Assembly (NCBI GenBank): GCA_002069125.1
Contig: MVZN01000027.1
Location: 1-36,080, forward strand
Source: Spirochaetes bacterium ADurb.BinA120
GTDB taxonomy: Bacteria; Spirochaetota; UBA4802; UBA5368
Length of the DNA: 36,080 bases
Direction: 5' to 3'
Part shown: positions 25,288-33,685 of the stretch, piece by piece
Layout of the letters: every line of letters begins with the position of its first letter
Numbering within the stretch: the first letter of the stretch is position 1
Notes under the pieces: model-generated
The model's database searches: none
What the model was told of the DNA's origin: nothing
Seen by the model: only the letters and a program-made list of their open reading frames with translations
Translations under genes and position numbers: made by a program

Positions 25288-25533
25288 TTAAAACAAAATG
25301 CACGGCCCCTCTAAGGCCTCTTCGTACCGGATGAACGGCTTGCCCGCACGGTCCGTTTCGTGCGGCTCCATCGGATTGACGAATGCGCGTACGCCGGCGA
25401 AGTAAAGGAAGCCCAATTTTTCAAGCGCCGTCTCGGGGTCGACCTCGCCCGGATATGGCCCCGTATAGAATCTTTCGGCAAGGACGGCATAGGCCCGTGT
25501 GAAGGCCGGATGCGGCTCCCGGGCGCCTACCAT
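25288..25533 (-). pseudogene. Truncated dual-specificity phosphatase-like ORF (N-terminal part only)
   Basis: An 81-aa ORF resembling the N-terminus of a group of bacterial dual-specificity/tyrosine phosphatases: RFYTGPYPGEVDPETALEKLGFLYFAGVRAFVNP followed by GKPFIRYEEAL (compare the usual GRLLAGEYPG, AGVR.FVDLTE and G.PF..YE pattern). The catalytic CX5R loop is missing; the frame stops six bases before the convergent oxidoreductase end. The start ATG overlaps the stop of the nuclease-helicase (ATGGTAG) with GGAG eight bases upstream, so it is probably still translated. It may be a remnant whose 3' part was lost in a rearrangement, or a reduced partner protein. Confidence 0.55.
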
Positions 25534-28500
25534 CCTGTAGGCTCCGCATAACGGCCACTTCCGCCGCTGAATTCATACTCCAGCTTCTCTCCTATGGAAT
25601 CATACAGGGCGCCATAATGCGGACTGCAGCAAAGCGCTGCGGGGTTGCCCACCACTATGACCTGCTCCCTGGCCCTTGTCAATGCCACGTTCAGCTTGCA
25701 GTCCACCTCGGGCTCGTCGATTTGCGGGTCGGCCGGCATTATCGACTGTAATATTTCGATCGTGGACGCGTCGCAGATACCGGCCGCTATGATGACCACG
25801 TCTCGCTGGCCGCCCTGGAAGCGCTCCACCGTGTCTATTCGGATGGAATCGGGGATGGGCAGGTCTTTTCGGGCGTATTCGCGTTCCAGAGAATTTCTAA
25901 GCCGCTGGATCTGCTTTCGAAAGGGCATGACGACGCCGATGGCGATCGAATCCCTGTGCAGAATTCCGAGCAGGTCCATAATCACCTCGTTCTCCCGCTC
26001 CCGCTGGATATTTTCGTCCCCGCCGGAAACCTGTATCCATATCCTCCTGTTGCGTTTCAACCTGTCGGCAAGCAGGGCCCTGCTCCCTTTAAATATACTG
26101 GAGTCCACATCTTTATGAAAGATGAATTTCTTTTGGGATTGCCATCCACTGCCGCAGCTAAGCTTGTTTCCGTAATAACGGCGATTGACGAAATCCTGGA
26201 TCTCCTCGTGCATCCTGTACTGCCTCGGCAGGGTCCGGGTTATCCAGTCCCATTTTTTATGGCGCGCGAGGCGCCACAGGCGCTCCATGATGGAGGCGCC
26301 GGGCCTTTCGGCGAACCCGATTTCGGCGATTTCCTCAGGCAGCATGTCGGCCTTGAGCTCCACCTCGTGCACGGGAGGCAGTTGTTTCTGGTCTCCGATG
26401 ATTATGGCCCTTTTAGAATAGGCAAGAACGGTGAGAAGCTGACATTCGTGTATCTGCGAGGCCTCGTCGACGATGAGTGTCCCATTTGCGCGGAAATGAA
26501 ACAGCTTTTCGTCGGCCGATGCCGTCGTAGTGATGAGCACGGAGGCGGACAACAGACGATTGAAGACATCCCTCATTTTATCGAACCTTTCGAGATCGGG
26601 CAGTTCCGACGCGTTTTTTAGAATCCTCCTGAGGGAATGCTTCGGCGCCCAATCCGCCGATGCTTCGGGGTCCGTGCCTATCTGGATGAAATCGCACATG
26701 TGCGCCGCGTCATCCTTGAACTCGTCGGCAAGGGCACCGGCAATCTCGCCCACAGCCTGGTTGGACATCGCGACTATAAGTATCTGTTCGTCCGGCCGCT
26801 TCTCCAGGCAACGGCGCACGAGCTTTGGAATGAAGTGGCGGGTTTTCCCGCTTCCGGGCGGCCCCTGTATTAGAAATAAAGGGTCGGAGTCCGAAGCGGC
26901 CTCCACCACATCGTCGGAATCGGGTTTCGAAGGGGCTTCCGCCCCGAGTAGGACGCGTTTCAGCCTGCCGCCCATTGTGACCAGGAGGTGGAATATCCCC
27001 TGGAACTGCGATTTGTGTATTTTTTCGCTGTAATATCTCTCCATGCAGAATATCGGCGGCGGTTCGCCGTTTGTAAGCGCTTCGCGCCACGTTTCTATCT
27101 CGGGCACGTAAGAATTTACTTCTACTTCGATAGTGACCGGCGGGAAAAGAGAGGCGCCGTCATCGTACTCCTTTTTGAATGTCTGCCGCATTAGATAGCC
27201 GTCTATAAGCACGGACGGCATGTCCATTGCCACATGCGGCTTCGGATAGAGTATAACGAGATCGTTTTCGCGAAACTTGAATTCCCTGGCGTCCGAAAGG
27301 TCATCGAGGAGCAGCGTCCATTTGCCGTTTGAATATTCAATGCTCGATAGGCTCAGGCTGTCGAGCAGCACGCCCTTTTCCATTTTTTCCTCCGGGTCGG
27401 ACCTCCATATATCCGACAGGGAGGTGTTCCGCGATGTCGAATACCATCCTATTCTGGCGGCAAGCATGGTCCTTGCGATGAAGGACACCATAAACTCCAC
27501 ATAGGAGCGCACCGTGGAGCCGCATGACCGGAGCTCGTTATCAAAGGCGAGCCGCGCCCTCTCCTCCTCGCCCTTGAACCAAATATCCGGATCGGAAGCC
27601 GCGCTGGAAAGCAGATCCCACACCCTGTCCCTCGATGCCAGGTCCGTTATCAGACGCACTGCCTCGTTTCTCACCTCGAGCATCTCCCGCATGTCGTCCG
27701 GCGAAGGCTCCTCCACGCGCCGTATCCAGCTATTCTCCGCGCGCGGATACCACAGGTCAAGCGAGCTTGCGCCGAACCTTTCCCCGGCCAGGGCCCGGTA
27801 CAACTGAAGCTGCCGCCTGTGCTGTGGGTTAAGGTAGTTCGGATCCTCCGGCGACCTGCCGTACACCTTGCCGGTTTTGAGCTCTATGAATTTTAGCATC
27901 CTCGCGTCGCCCGTGGGCTGAAAGAGGATGTCGATCTTTCCGGTAAGACCAAGCCTTGGGCTGTACACCGGGACCTCCCAGTAGGCTTTTCCCCGCTCCT
28001 TTTCGATCCGCGGAATCAAAAGATCGTTAAGGCCCCTATAACCCACATGGTCCTTTATGCCCGCGGTCCTTCGGCATTCGGGAAACCGAGGGCATCCATA
28101 GAACTGCCCGTTTCGGGAGCTTCGCAGTACCATCTGCAAATTGTGGTCCGGGCACTGGGGGGCCGATTCGTTTTTCAAATCCCTTACCGTATGCTCGAAA
28201 TCGCGATCTCCTGGAAGGGTCGCAAGGTCCAGCATCCGCTCCGAGAGCGCGTCCAGCACCATGGAATTCCTCTCCGATTCCATGTCCCTTCCCTCATTTT
28301 TACAGTGCAGCGCCCTGTCGACAAGAATGTTGACGAGCTGGCCCACGACCGTATTATGGCGGGAAGGTCCACGCGGGGCAAAATGGCTTTTTATCACATG
28401 CATTGGCCTGGGGCCCTCCAGAAGCCCCTCTCGAATATATCCCGGATAACACTCGGTAAGATCGGTAACGGTTAGCATATAATCGGGATGATGCACAAGG

Positions 28501-29324
28501 AGGGAATCGGCCCCGCAGAAGGGCGTTCTGTCGCCCATCGTCAATCCGGACAAATAGACGGTATCGCCCTCCGCCAATTTAGAAAATTCATCTGCCCGCG
28601 TGGAATCGAAACTCAATGTCCCGCACCATGAACCCTGCTCCAGGCATGCCATCGCGGATAGCGGAGTGCCGCTGTTTTTTCTAAGCACGATGAAACGCCC
28701 TTCTTGTATTTCGCGCCGGTCGAAATCAATGTAATCGGCCATTCTTTTGGACGGCGGCCTCTTTGCCAGCTTTTCGGCAAAGAGGCATATATTCATTATC
28801 AACTGCCCAAGGGCCCTTCGGCCCGAATCCCCCTGCCAGAGGTGATGGCGCATGCCCATATGGTGCGCATGGTTCATGAGCTCCCTGGCGATATCGATAT
28901 GATGGAGCGCGAGGCCTATGGAATCGGCGGGCCGTTCTCCGCCGGGCGCGTTTTTTGCCGTCTGTATGCGCTTTTCCCAATTTCCTATGTCTTTTACCCT
29001 GTATGATTTCGCTTCCTTTAACAGGGCCGGATTAACTCTCTCGAGCTGCGCGTTTATCCAGCTTTCGAATACGACGCGAAGCTCGGCCGCCTTCGAATGC
29101 GAGGTGAATAGGCGCACATCGGTCGAAAAGAGAATACCCTCGACCTCCCGTTCGAGCTCATCCCATTGAACCCTGTCCGCAAGGCCCGGCTCCTCTTCGA
29201 TCCTTCTAAGCGTTTCGATAAGGCAAAAGATCAGGTTGGGCTTTTCGGTTGAGGGTTTTGCAGATGTCTTTTTGCTTCCGCTTTCCATAATTTTCACCGC
29301 AAGCGCCGGCCCGATTTGGCGCAT
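25527..29324 (-). CDS. Dna2-like nuclease-helicase (PD-(D/E)XK plus SF1B helicase) with inserted zinc finger
   Basis: A 1265-aa DNA-processing enzyme. Residues 1-190 are helical with no assignment; 200-280 look OB-like. The YMLTVTDLTECYPGYI block (282-297) matches the start of the Dna2/Cas4 nuclease. A topoisomerase-type zinc finger follows (C391, H394, C411, C417). Then come the PD-(D/E)XK residues D465 (GKIDIL), E481/K483 (IELKTGK) and Q505...Y509. The helicase has Walker A GPPGSGKT (821-828), DEAS (953-956), GDQKQLPP (977-984), RQYRMH (1034-1039), RFQGGQRDVVII (1168-1179) and VALTRARE (1213-1220), as in Upf1/Dna2 SF1B helicases. The three downstream cysteines that bind Fe-S in Dna2/Cas4/AddB are absent. 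It may act in end processing or in defence. ATG 29288 is an alternative start. Confidence 0.9.
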   Translation of the reverse strand: MRQIGPALAVKIMESGSKKTSAKPSTEKPNLIFCLIETLRRIEEEPGLADRVQWDELEREVEGILFSTDVRLFTSHSKAAELRVVFESWINAQLERVNPALLKEAKSYRVKDIGNWEKRIQTAKNAPGGERPADSIGLALHHIDIARELMNHAHHMGMRHHLWQGDSGRRALGQLIMNICLFAEKLAKRPPSKRMADYIDFDRREIQEGRFIVLRKNSGTPLSAMACLEQGSWCGTLSFDSTRADEFSKLAEGDTVYLSGLTMGDRTPFCGADSLLVHHPDYMLTVTDLTECYPGYIREGLLEGPRPMHVIKSHFAPRGPSRHNTVVGQLVNILVDRALHCKNEGRDMESERNSMVLDALSERMLDLATLPGDRDFEHTVRDLKNESAPQCPDHNLQMVLRSSRNGQFYGCPRFPECRRTAGIKDHVGYRGLNDLLIPRIEKERGKAYWEVPVYSPRLGLTGKIDILFQPTGDARMLKFIELKTGKVYGRSPEDPNYLNPQHRRQLQLYRALAGERFGASSLDLWYPRAENSWIRRVEEPSPDDMREMLEVRNEAVRLITDLASRDRVWDLLSSAASDPDIWFKGEEERARLAFDNELRSCGSTVRSYVEFMVSFIARTMLAARIGWYSTSRNTSLSDIWRSDPEEKMEKGVLLDSLSLSSIEYSNGKWTLLLDDLSDAREFKFRENDLVILYPKPHVAMDMPSVLIDGYLMRQTFKKEYDDGASLFPPVTIEVEVNSYVPEIETWREALTNGEPPPIFCMERYYSEKIHKSQFQGIFHLLVTMGGRLKRVLLGAEAPSKPDSDDVVEAASDSDPLFLIQGPPGSGKTRHFIPKLVRRCLEKRPDEQILIVAMSNQAVGEIAGALADEFKDDAAHMCDFIQIGTDPEASADWAPKHSLRRILKNASELPDLERFDKMRDVFNRLLSASVLITTTASADEKLFHFRANGTLIVDEASQIHECQLLTVLAYSKRAIIIGDQKQLPPVHEVELKADMLPEEIAEIGFAERPGASIMERLWRLARHKKWDWITRTLPRQYRMHEEIQDFVNRRYYGNKLSCGSGWQSQKKFIFHKDVDSSIFKGSRALLADRLKRNRRIWIQVSGGDENIQRERENEVIMDLLGILHRDSIAIGVVMPFRKQIQRLRNSLEREYARKDLPIPDSIRIDTVERFQGGQRDVVIIAAGICDASTIEILQSIMPADPQIDEPEVDCKLNVALTRAREQVIVVGNPAALCCSPHYGALYDSIGEKLEYEFSGGSGRYAEPTGW

Positions 29325-29357
29325 TACGTTTTCGCCGCCGGGGCCATGGGTATGGCG

Positions 29358-29448
29358 ACCTCACCCCGCCTCCGGCGCATGATACTGTTGAATGCCTCCC
29401 CTTCCATCAATTAATCCTCTCGGGAGAGGGGGACGGGGGGGGCGAGGC
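29358..29448. repeat. Repeat copy A (short, 3' flank of the DUF559 gene)
   Basis: It begins ACCTCACCCCGCCTCCGGCG and ends in GGGAGAGGGGG...GGCGAGGC, the same inverted ends as copies B and C, but the interior is short and unrelated. The stop codon of the DUF559 gene (TAG, minus strand) is made by the CTA just past its right end. Confidence 0.75.
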
Positions 29449-29826
29449 CTAAGACTTTATCTCACTCTTCAATCTCGCGGTAATATATTTTTTGTTCTTA
29501 AAAACATCATCGTTTGAAAAGCGTAGTATTTTCAACCCGCGAAGGCTAAGCGCTTCATCACGATTATTGTCATATTCTTTCCGCTTGCTACAATTATGAA
29601 CAGAACCATCGATCTCCACGCAGAGCCCCAGACTGTCGCAATAGAAATCGACAATAAACCCGTCAATTATCTGCTGACGTCGAAACTTTAGACCATGCAT
29701 ACGACGGTTTCGCACCATTTCCCAGAATTCACGTTCGGCCAGAGTCATTTTTGCGCGAAGTTCCCTGGAACGGGCGACTTTCCTGGAATTGACTCTCTGG
29801 TTTTTAATGATTCCTTTCGTATCCAT
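29449..29826 (-). CDS. DUF559 endonuclease-fold protein
   Basis: About 125 aa from ATG 29826, with GAGG (inside repeat B) nine bases upstream; GTG 29841 within the repeat is an in-frame alternative. Family signature: SRELRAKMTLAEREFWEMVRNRRM, GLKFRRQQIIDGFIVDFYC, LGLCVEIDGSVH and LRGLKILRFSNDDVF, the very-short-patch-repair-like nuclease fold (acidic residues in VDFYC and EIDG, plus the RRQ motif). Basic and soluble, it probably nicks or cuts DNA, but no activity is shown for most members. It sits exactly between two copies of a repeat, and its base composition is more AT-rich than neighbouring genes, suggesting it travels with the repeats. Confidence 0.88.
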   Translation of the reverse strand: MDTKGIIKNQRVNSRKVARSRELRAKMTLAEREFWEMVRNRRMHGLKFRRQQIIDGFIVDFYCDSLGLCVEIDGSVHNCSKRKEYDNNRDEALSLRGLKILRFSNDDVFKNKKYITARLKSEIKS

Positions 29827-29834
29827 TAACTCAG

Positions 29835-30040
29835 ACCTCACCCCGCCTCCGGCGCGCCCTCTCCCGCAGGAGAGGGCTTCGTTATATGAGACTGTTAAAC
29901 AGCTTTAACTTTACCCACTCTTAAGTCTTAAGAGCTCTATTCTTTCCTTAACTTACTGTCACTATTATCGGGCAAGGTTCAACTGACCCCCCCTCTCCTT
30001 TCTTCCAATCTTAAGGGGAGAGGGGGCCGGGGGGTGAGGT
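29835..30040. repeat. Repeat copy B (206 bases, inverted ends)
   Basis: It starts ACCTCACCCCGCCTCCGGCG and ends GGGGTGAGGT, so its ends are imperfect inverted repeats of about 30 bases. Inside are the hairpins CCCTCTCC/GGAGAGGG, CTGTTAAACAG and CTCTTAAGTCTTAAGAG. A CTAAT spacer separates it from copy C. No protein is encoded. Confidence 0.88.
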
Positions 30041-30045
30041 CTAAT

Positions 30046-30252
30046 ACCCCACCCCGCCTCCGGCGCGCCCTCTCCCGCAGGAGAGGGCTTCGTTATATGA
30101 GACTGTTAAACAGCTTTAACTTTACCCACTCTTAAGTCTTAAGAGCTCTATTCTTTCCTTAACTTACTGTCACTATTATCGGGCAAGGTTCAACTGAACT
30201 CCCCCTCTCCTTTCTTCCAATCTTAATGGGAGAGGGGGCCGGGGGGTGAGGT
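30046..30252. repeat. Repeat copy C (207 bases, tandem with B)
   Basis: Almost identical to copy B, with differences near the start (ACCCC for ACCTC), around the CCCCTCTCC tract and at AATGGG for AAGGGG. The period is 211-212 bases. It is followed by CTAAT and copy D. Confidence 0.88.
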
Positions 30253-30257
30253 CTAAT

Positions 30258-30285
30258 ACCTCACCCCGCCTCCGGCGCGCCCTCT
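30258..30285. repeat. Repeat copy D (truncated left end)
   Basis: Only the first 28 bases of the unit remain (ACCTCACCCCGCCTCCGGCG and CGCCCTCT), after which the sequence changes abruptly. This marks a break point or incomplete copy. Confidence 0.8.
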
Positions 30286-33532: not shown

Positions 33533-33564
33533 GGCTTCATCTGGGTGGAGGAGTCGATGAACGC

Positions 33565-33603
33565 AACGCCGCCGGCGCTCTGCGCCACCCCCAGAGAGGG
33601 TTT
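33565..33603. repeat. Direct repeat, copy 1 (two mini-hairpins)
   Basis: This 39-base unit contains GGCGC-TCT-GCGCC, then a C-run, AGA and a G-run followed by TTT. It occurs again 82 bases downstream with two mismatches. It looks like a structured intergenic element of the REP kind. Confidence 0.7.
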
Positions 33604-33646
33604 GGGTCTCATACTGCCGGTCGGATAGTCCGCAACCCTTGAGCCC

Positions 33647-33685
33647 AACGCCCCCGGCGCTCTGCGCCACCCCCAGAGGGGGTTT
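33647..33685. repeat. Direct repeat, copy 2 (two mini-hairpins)
   Basis: Second copy, here with a perfect CCCCC-AGA-GGGGG stem before TTT. Sequence after each copy (a TGCCG...CCGGAT stretch) is also partly conserved, so the duplicated segment may be about 60 bases. Confidence 0.7.

Follow-up and report, generated by a model that had tools for sequence, protein, structure and literature searches.

What is a small nuclease gene doing between copies of a repeat with inverted ends? This question is raised by contig MVZN01000027.1 of Spirochaetes bacterium ADurb.BinA120 (assembly GCA_002069125.1; our C27), which we analyzed over its entire length of 36,080 nucleotides and call the window, and on which a gene of the DUF559 family lies amid G/C-rich repeats. 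An initial annotation, made from the letters alone, had proposed that the gene and the repeat ends form one mobile or homing-like cassette. This proposal found support in relatives, namely in a pair of copies within one genome (L014/L041), in insertions within hsdM and hsdR and in the LeuRS genes of Maribacter. We now consider it likely that the DUF559 gene forms one mobile, homing-like cassette together with its G/C hairpin ends, and that these ends also spread without the gene. The observations behind this assignment are the association of gene and hairpins, the boundaries of the cassettes, the co-variation of repeat and nuclease, a patchy distribution at one site that is used recurrently, purifying selection on the nuclease, and the fold of the enzyme.

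The DUF559 locus of the window

The gene and the adjoining repeat units are arranged as follows.

29357..29448: repeat unit A, 92 nt, with left end GACCTCACCCCGCCTCCGGCGC and right end CCTCTCGGGAGAGGGGGACGGGGGGGGCGAGGC
29449..29841, minus strand: nuclease gene of the DUF559 family (PF04480), encoding 130 aa if started at GTG 29841 and 125 aa if started at ATG 29826; predicted Vsr/EDxHD-like fold
29834..30041: repeat unit B, a gene-less doublet (GACCTCACCCC-hairpin-spacer-hairpin-GGGGTGAGGTC), the left end of which holds the GTG start and probable ribosome-binding site of the gene
29857..29876: left hairpin of unit B, CCCTCTCCCGCAGGAGAGGG
29989..30026: right hairpin of unit B, a three-block (triplex-type) motif together with the GGGGGGTGAG tail
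30045..30253: repeat unit C, a gene-less doublet that shares 164 nt with B at 97% identity
30257..30285: unit D, a truncated fourth left end

The open reading frame spans from unit A to unit B, as expected from the initial annotation, which had described it as running from repeat boundary to repeat boundary. The architecture needed correction, however: the gene sits between two gene-less doublets, with their tails facing inward, and not within one. Two finer details held. The stop codon is provided by a plus-strand CTA (29449-29451) immediately past unit A, and a CTA also directly follows unit B. The GTG start at 29841 is located inside the end of unit B (context GG-GTG-AGGTC), and the GGTGAGG in this end is likely to be the ribosome-binding site for the ATG at 29826. 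The inverted ends shared by the repeats were recovered as well. A 22-nt end is common to units A, B, C and truncated D (identity 91–100%), and the inverted arms of 27 nt are 74% complementary. According to the predicted fold of unit B (-88.7 kcal/mol), both tails are paired (GACCTCACCCC with GGGGTGAGGTC) and a hairpin stands near each end.

Units A, B and C loosely follow a three-block triplex pattern consisting of a C arm, a G arm and a second G arm. They do not fit the strict pattern of the TMECO repeats (also known as BoxC or PIT), CCCTCNCCC N3-6 GGGNGAGGG N3 GGGNGAGGG, since their loops are longer and their arms differ. An Rfam scan of the window gave no match. Units B and C are short, gene-less, bounded by terminal inverted repeats and present in several copies, in the manner of miniature inverted-repeat transposable elements (MITEs). 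Indeed, unit B has 23 places in its own genome, so the repeat structure is not a product of chance. Outside the window, these places mostly hold the 54-nt right end, in addition to some left ends and some gene-less doublets (e.g., L241). Copies and doublets with the same ends are dispersed in the genome without the gene, in keeping with the view that B and C may be gene-less, MITE-like derivatives.

DUF559 genes in the same genome and in relatives

Two further DUF559 genes were found in the same genome, on contigs C107 and C80. The gene on C107 is enclosed by a different pair of C-rich hairpins, next to which tandem copies without the gene are found, and the gene on C80 (L003) is frameshifted and adjoins a third kind of hairpin doublet. 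As both sets of hairpins differ from those of the window, three DUF559 genes are accompanied by three hairpin families in one genome. In L048, which belongs to the nuclease clade of the window, we observed the simplest, single-doublet form, GACCTCACCCC-hairpin-gene-hairpin-GGGGTGAGGTC, with tails pointing outward and with the ends of gene-less unit B. At L029 the gene lies between two doublets, as in the window.

Intact copies of the frameshifted C80 gene occur in the same genus (L037, L038), beside the same kind of hairpin doublet. In three genomes (L019, L037, L038) a DUF559 cassette is situated directly upstream of a similar gene (start MIKxF...); the cassette at this place is of a different type in the family relative, and either a hot spot or a paralogue is possible. 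On plasmid pAQ6 of Picosynechococcus PCC 7002 (L256), a DUF559 gene is located amid many C-rich hairpin repeats.

Hairpins flank DUF559 genes in many phyla

We compared 49 DUF559 loci from relatives and 80 from many phyla (one archaeon included) with 30 loci of ParE toxin genes, which were taken from the same relatives. Locus L042, from an order-level relative, is identical to L115 of Spirochaetes bacterium RBG_16_49_21. Hairpins were counted only at loci with enough flank (46 and 79 DUF559 loci, 28 ParE loci), and a union rule was applied, as many hairpins of the CCCCCC type escape a search for perfect 7-bp arms only. G+C hairpins with a pyrimidine 5′ arm were present within 200 bp at 44/46 loci of the relatives and 68/79 cross-phylum loci (112/125 taken together) versus 1/28 ParE loci (Fisher, 4e-19). 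Both flanks carried them at 31 and 43 of these DUF559 loci, respectively, and at none of the ParE loci, while no locus had mirror-type hairpins (purine 5′ arm) on both sides. Hairpin density near DUF559 was 7.4 per kb in the first 100 bp compared to 0.1–0.3 per kb past 500 bp. When a third G-rich arm was required, the resulting three-block triplex motif was detected at 94/129 DUF559 loci, 0/30 ParE loci and in 39/1961 background windows. A G-quadruplex, found in 52/129 DUF559 flanks and 0/30 ParE loci, was rejected as the common feature, because a hairpin with a third arm fits more loci.

These counts bear on a more ordinary function of the hairpins, as transcription terminators or as elements of mRNA stability belonging to a small defence gene that is often transferred. 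G+C hairpins beside genes are common, and the hits returned by PADLOC (DpdF and a type II enzyme) were weak; nothing beyond these pointed to a defence system. Yet the hairpins stand on both sides of the gene, upstream included, they form genome-wide repeats with a purine tail, they code in frame within other proteins (see below), and they are almost absent around ParE. Furthermore, published E. coli copies of TMECO had neither promoter nor terminator activity (PMC4666352). We consider this explanation extremely improbable.

Ends match the nuclease clade

Protein identity correlated with end similarity (Mantel r 0.355, reached in 0/2000 permutations) across the 72 loci whose two flanks both carry hairpins. 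The upstream and downstream ends of the same gene showed a similarity of 0.19 versus 0.095 with the ends of other genes. For DUF559 genes of different clades residing in the same genome, end similarity was mostly near background (0.05–0.11), with one pair at 0.196. The repeat sequence tracks the nuclease clade rather than the host genome.

Gene and ends behave as a unit

One genome contains both L014 and L041, which share a 452-bp stretch with both hairpins at 94% identity; their flanks are unrelated. Similarly, the likeness among copies in hsdM (L104, L122) and hsdR (L119, L156, L138) is bounded by the tails, CCCTC on the left and GAGGG on the right, and does not extend further. About 25 of the 80 cross-phylum loci represent in-frame insertions within other proteins, where the cassette ends code for peptides such as PSLNPSQREG. 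Pfam searches located DUF559 within split or interrupted HsdM, HsdR, HsdS, UvrC, LeuRS, IleRS, RibD and MmeI, and one site in hsdR (FIVFE...ITTVTTIKK) is occupied both in several bacterial groups and in an archaeon. The DUF559 copies are under purifying selection (ratio of nonsynonymous to synonymous substitution rates, dN/dS, 0.06–0.23).

Recurrent occupation of a LeuRS site in Maribacter

A LeuRS match was obtained for 35 of 36 sampled Maribacter genomes, and five of these 35 genes harbor a cassette in the same loop. The 25 empty genes that were read mostly have short loops, a few have longer ones. In a tree of 30 of the LeuRS genes, the five filled genes are scattered, and well-supported branches force five changes. 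The cassettes of L202 and L203 are 93.7% identical versus 83.7% for the downstream LeuRS, and each of the two genes has an empty sister above 90%. At L210, a short, hairpin-coded, gene-less remnant occupies the site. Presence and absence at one site together with spread between lineages, as expected of homing, is therefore seen in Maribacter relatives, not for the window copy. Here, an empty site was not found: the gene next to the locus (25527-29324), which encodes a helicase-like AAA protein bearing a zinc ribbon of the topoisomerase type, was well matched in only one family genome (G007), where the upstream neighbourhood is different.

Recurrent use of one site would also be explained by pure homing into resident hairpin repeats, in which case the flanks would be targets and not parts of the element. 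The homing-endonuclease fold (see below) and the position of the gene between doublets in the window and at L029 are in line with this idea. It conflicts, however, with the finding that DUF559 clades within one genome differ in their ends, each resembling its own clade elsewhere. Moreover, the LeuRS insertions bring the ends into a gene that lacks the repeat in empty relatives, and the same ends were carried into two different genes, hsdM and hsdR. Pure homing thus appears very unlikely, and we prefer a cassette that brings its own ends.

The nuclease

The window protein (P0001) matched PF04480 with an E value of 8.5e-33 and 112.9 bits (cut-off 20.6) over profile positions 3–107 of 109; the only other Pfam match, MTES_1575, remained below cut-off. 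Relations of this family have been noted before: YcjD of E. coli was linked to Vsr (PMC1189080) and DUF559 was assigned to the EDxHD family (PMC9403480). Invariant residues among DUF559 proteins include D65, E76, D78 and H82 (window protein numbering). The predicted structure (predicted local distance difference test, pLDDT, 89.5) matched 3hrl, a DUF559 protein (Z 15.8), the homing endonuclease I-Bth0305I (Z 12.8) and Vsr (Z 10.5–10.8). I-Bth0305I was superposed over 92 residues at 2.5 Å and was also matched at the profile level (E 3.6e-5). As judged from the model, DUF559 folds like I-Bth0305I and Vsr.

BoxC/PIT/TMECO repeats and ycjD of E. coli

The BoxC, PIT and triplex repeats of E. coli were already known in the 1990s. 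TMECO repeats form an intrastrand triplex in vitro, and 3610 copies were reported from 262 proteobacterial genomes (Holder et al. 2015, PMC4666352). Like the ends described here, they combine a hairpin made of a C-rich and a G-rich arm with a second G-rich arm and often occur as inverted doublets; the window units differ by the longer loops mentioned above. The ycjD gene of E. coli (gene order sapF-ycjD-fabI) is a DUF559 gene, separated from fabI by a repeat that has exactly the published sequence of TMECO no. 9 and fits the strict pattern. E. coli K-12 has ycjD plus about 20 repeats. In 60 E. coli records, taken from across the ranking, we counted matches to the ycjD-repeat query as repeat places. 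Records with ycjD (n = 37) had 11–26 places (median 17) and those without (n = 23) had 1–14 (median 4), a correlation that is supportive only, being confounded by phylogroup, since strains without ycjD carry the eefRABCD efflux operon. As the operon takes the very place of ycjD, the gene could not be used as a simple empty/filled pair.

No gene that spreads BoxC/PIT repeats was named in the literature we found, and no link of DUF559 to repeats or palindromes was found in the open literature (subscription papers and preprints being outside the search).

Points against the cassette and the case for self-spreading repeats

Several observations weigh against a homing-like cassette. Thirteen of the 125 DUF559 loci failed the hairpin test, about half of which show imperfect hairpins under a looser rule. 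No clear target-site duplication was seen in L014/L041 or in the LeuRS insertions, and no co-conversion tract around the Maribacter LeuRS site. The window protein is a single domain of 130 aa without a long tethered DNA-binding arm, whereas in the known phage EDxHD homing enzymes the nuclease is joined to an additional, long DNA-binding region (PMC3943268). In E. coli, the repeat stands on the 3′ side of ycjD only, and the correlation with repeat number suffers from the confounding described above. Finally, the phylum relative G057 holds 12 copies of a related repeat, CCTCACCCnnnCCCTCTCCC (C13, C20, C55 and others) and gave no DUF559 match, in a metagenome-assembled genome that is 85% complete. 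Repeats can thus outlive the gene or arrive without it. Repeats devoid of DUF559, which the initial annotation had counted against its own proposal, were accordingly encountered both in G057 and as gene-less copies, which are common here as they are among MITEs; yet DUF559 genes are nearly always flanked by hairpins.

The many gene-less copies and G057 would be accommodated if the repeats spread by themselves, through replication slippage and recombination at triplex-forming hairpins, with DUF559 as a cellular nuclease that handles such structures and is a selected neighbour or a passenger in unstable regions. Holder et al. found no mobility activity near TMECO and tied the motifs to genomic instability without a mobility gene (PMC4666352). 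Four results disagree with self-spreading: across genomes the repeat sequence follows the nuclease clade and not the genome, cassettes travel together with both of their ends, one LeuRS site was recurrently entered with the gene inside, and the ParE control genes were not trapped in repeats. We therefore regard self-spreading as unlikely, albeit as the strongest competitor of the mobile cassette.

Proposed mechanism and relation to known systems

From these results we infer that the ends are cleaved, that repair drives the copying of the cassette and that gene-less copies are mobilised in trans. Each end is a pyrimidine/purine hairpin with a G-rich tail, in the intrastrand-triplex pattern of BoxC/PIT. 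The Vsr/EDxHD-type nuclease may recognize its cognate ends, or a similar target, as extruded or single-stranded DNA and nick or cut it, and host repair would then copy the cassette into the break. The same enzyme might also act in trans on gene-less doublets, such as B and C of the window and the scattered copies, and have them copied in the way proposed for REPINs and RAYT transposases. Insertions within genes would survive if they are in frame in a tolerant surface loop.

In the best-supported reading, that of a homing-like mobile cassette with ends that also persist as gene-less repeats, DUF559 may work like RAYT/REP systems and homing endonucleases. As in a REPtron (RAYT/TnpA-REP with REPIN doublets; PMC3116915, PMC3733652), one nuclease gene lies between inverted palindromic ends, inverted doublets are also dispersed in the genome without the gene, and the repeat type is specific to the enzyme clade. 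However, RAYT is an HUH tyrosine transposase and DUF559 is of the Vsr/PD-(D/E)XK type; the window protein gave no sign of an HUH/Y1 transposase (Pfam yielded only DUF559 and the sub-cut-off MTES_1575, and the fold is Vsr-like). The ends of DUF559 cassettes are triplex-type G/C hairpins (GACCTCACCCC/GGGGTGAGGTC) without a GTAG tag, and insertion takes place in frame within essential genes, too. Because HUH transposase and GTAG tag are absent, the cassette is not a REPtron. The EDxHD homing endonucleases (I-Bth0305I) and Vsr share the closest solved folds after 3hrl, but DUF559 has no intron, intein or extra DNA-binding region, possesses hairpin ends and uses many unrelated sites. As the long DNA-binding arm is missing, we regard it as a putative homing endonuclease at most. 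MITE-like in-frame repeats (Rickettsia RPE and others; PMC2229807) are likewise small and palindromic and form in-frame fusions with conserved proteins; for most of them no mobility gene was known, whereas the DUF559 insert brings its own nuclease gene.

Whether DUF559 cassettes make up a new, very widespread class of bacterial and archaeal mobile elements, in which a lone Vsr/EDxHD nuclease with triplex-forming ends inserts itself in frame and drives the spread of BoxC/PIT-type repeats, seems to us evenly poised. DUF559 may be the driver, long missing, behind the spread of a very common class of repeats in bacteria, BoxC of E. coli included. If so, the cognate nuclease would name the gene that spreads BoxC/PIT/triplex repeats, a common family of "unknown function" would receive one, and the nuclease domain sometimes found in essential enzymes such as LeuRS, IleRS and UvrC would be explained.

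Additional observations

At two loci (L193, L198), large helicase-like open reading frames bear a DUF559-like nuclease domain at their end; the neighbour of the DUF559 gene in the window is helicase-like, too. The window contains a second repeat at 33558-33685, comprising two 46-nt copies at 91% identity with a CCCCCAGAGGGGG hairpin, and similar G/C repeats (CCCCCTCCGGGGGTGGCGCAGAGCGCCGGGGG) adjoin gene-less copies elsewhere in the same genome.
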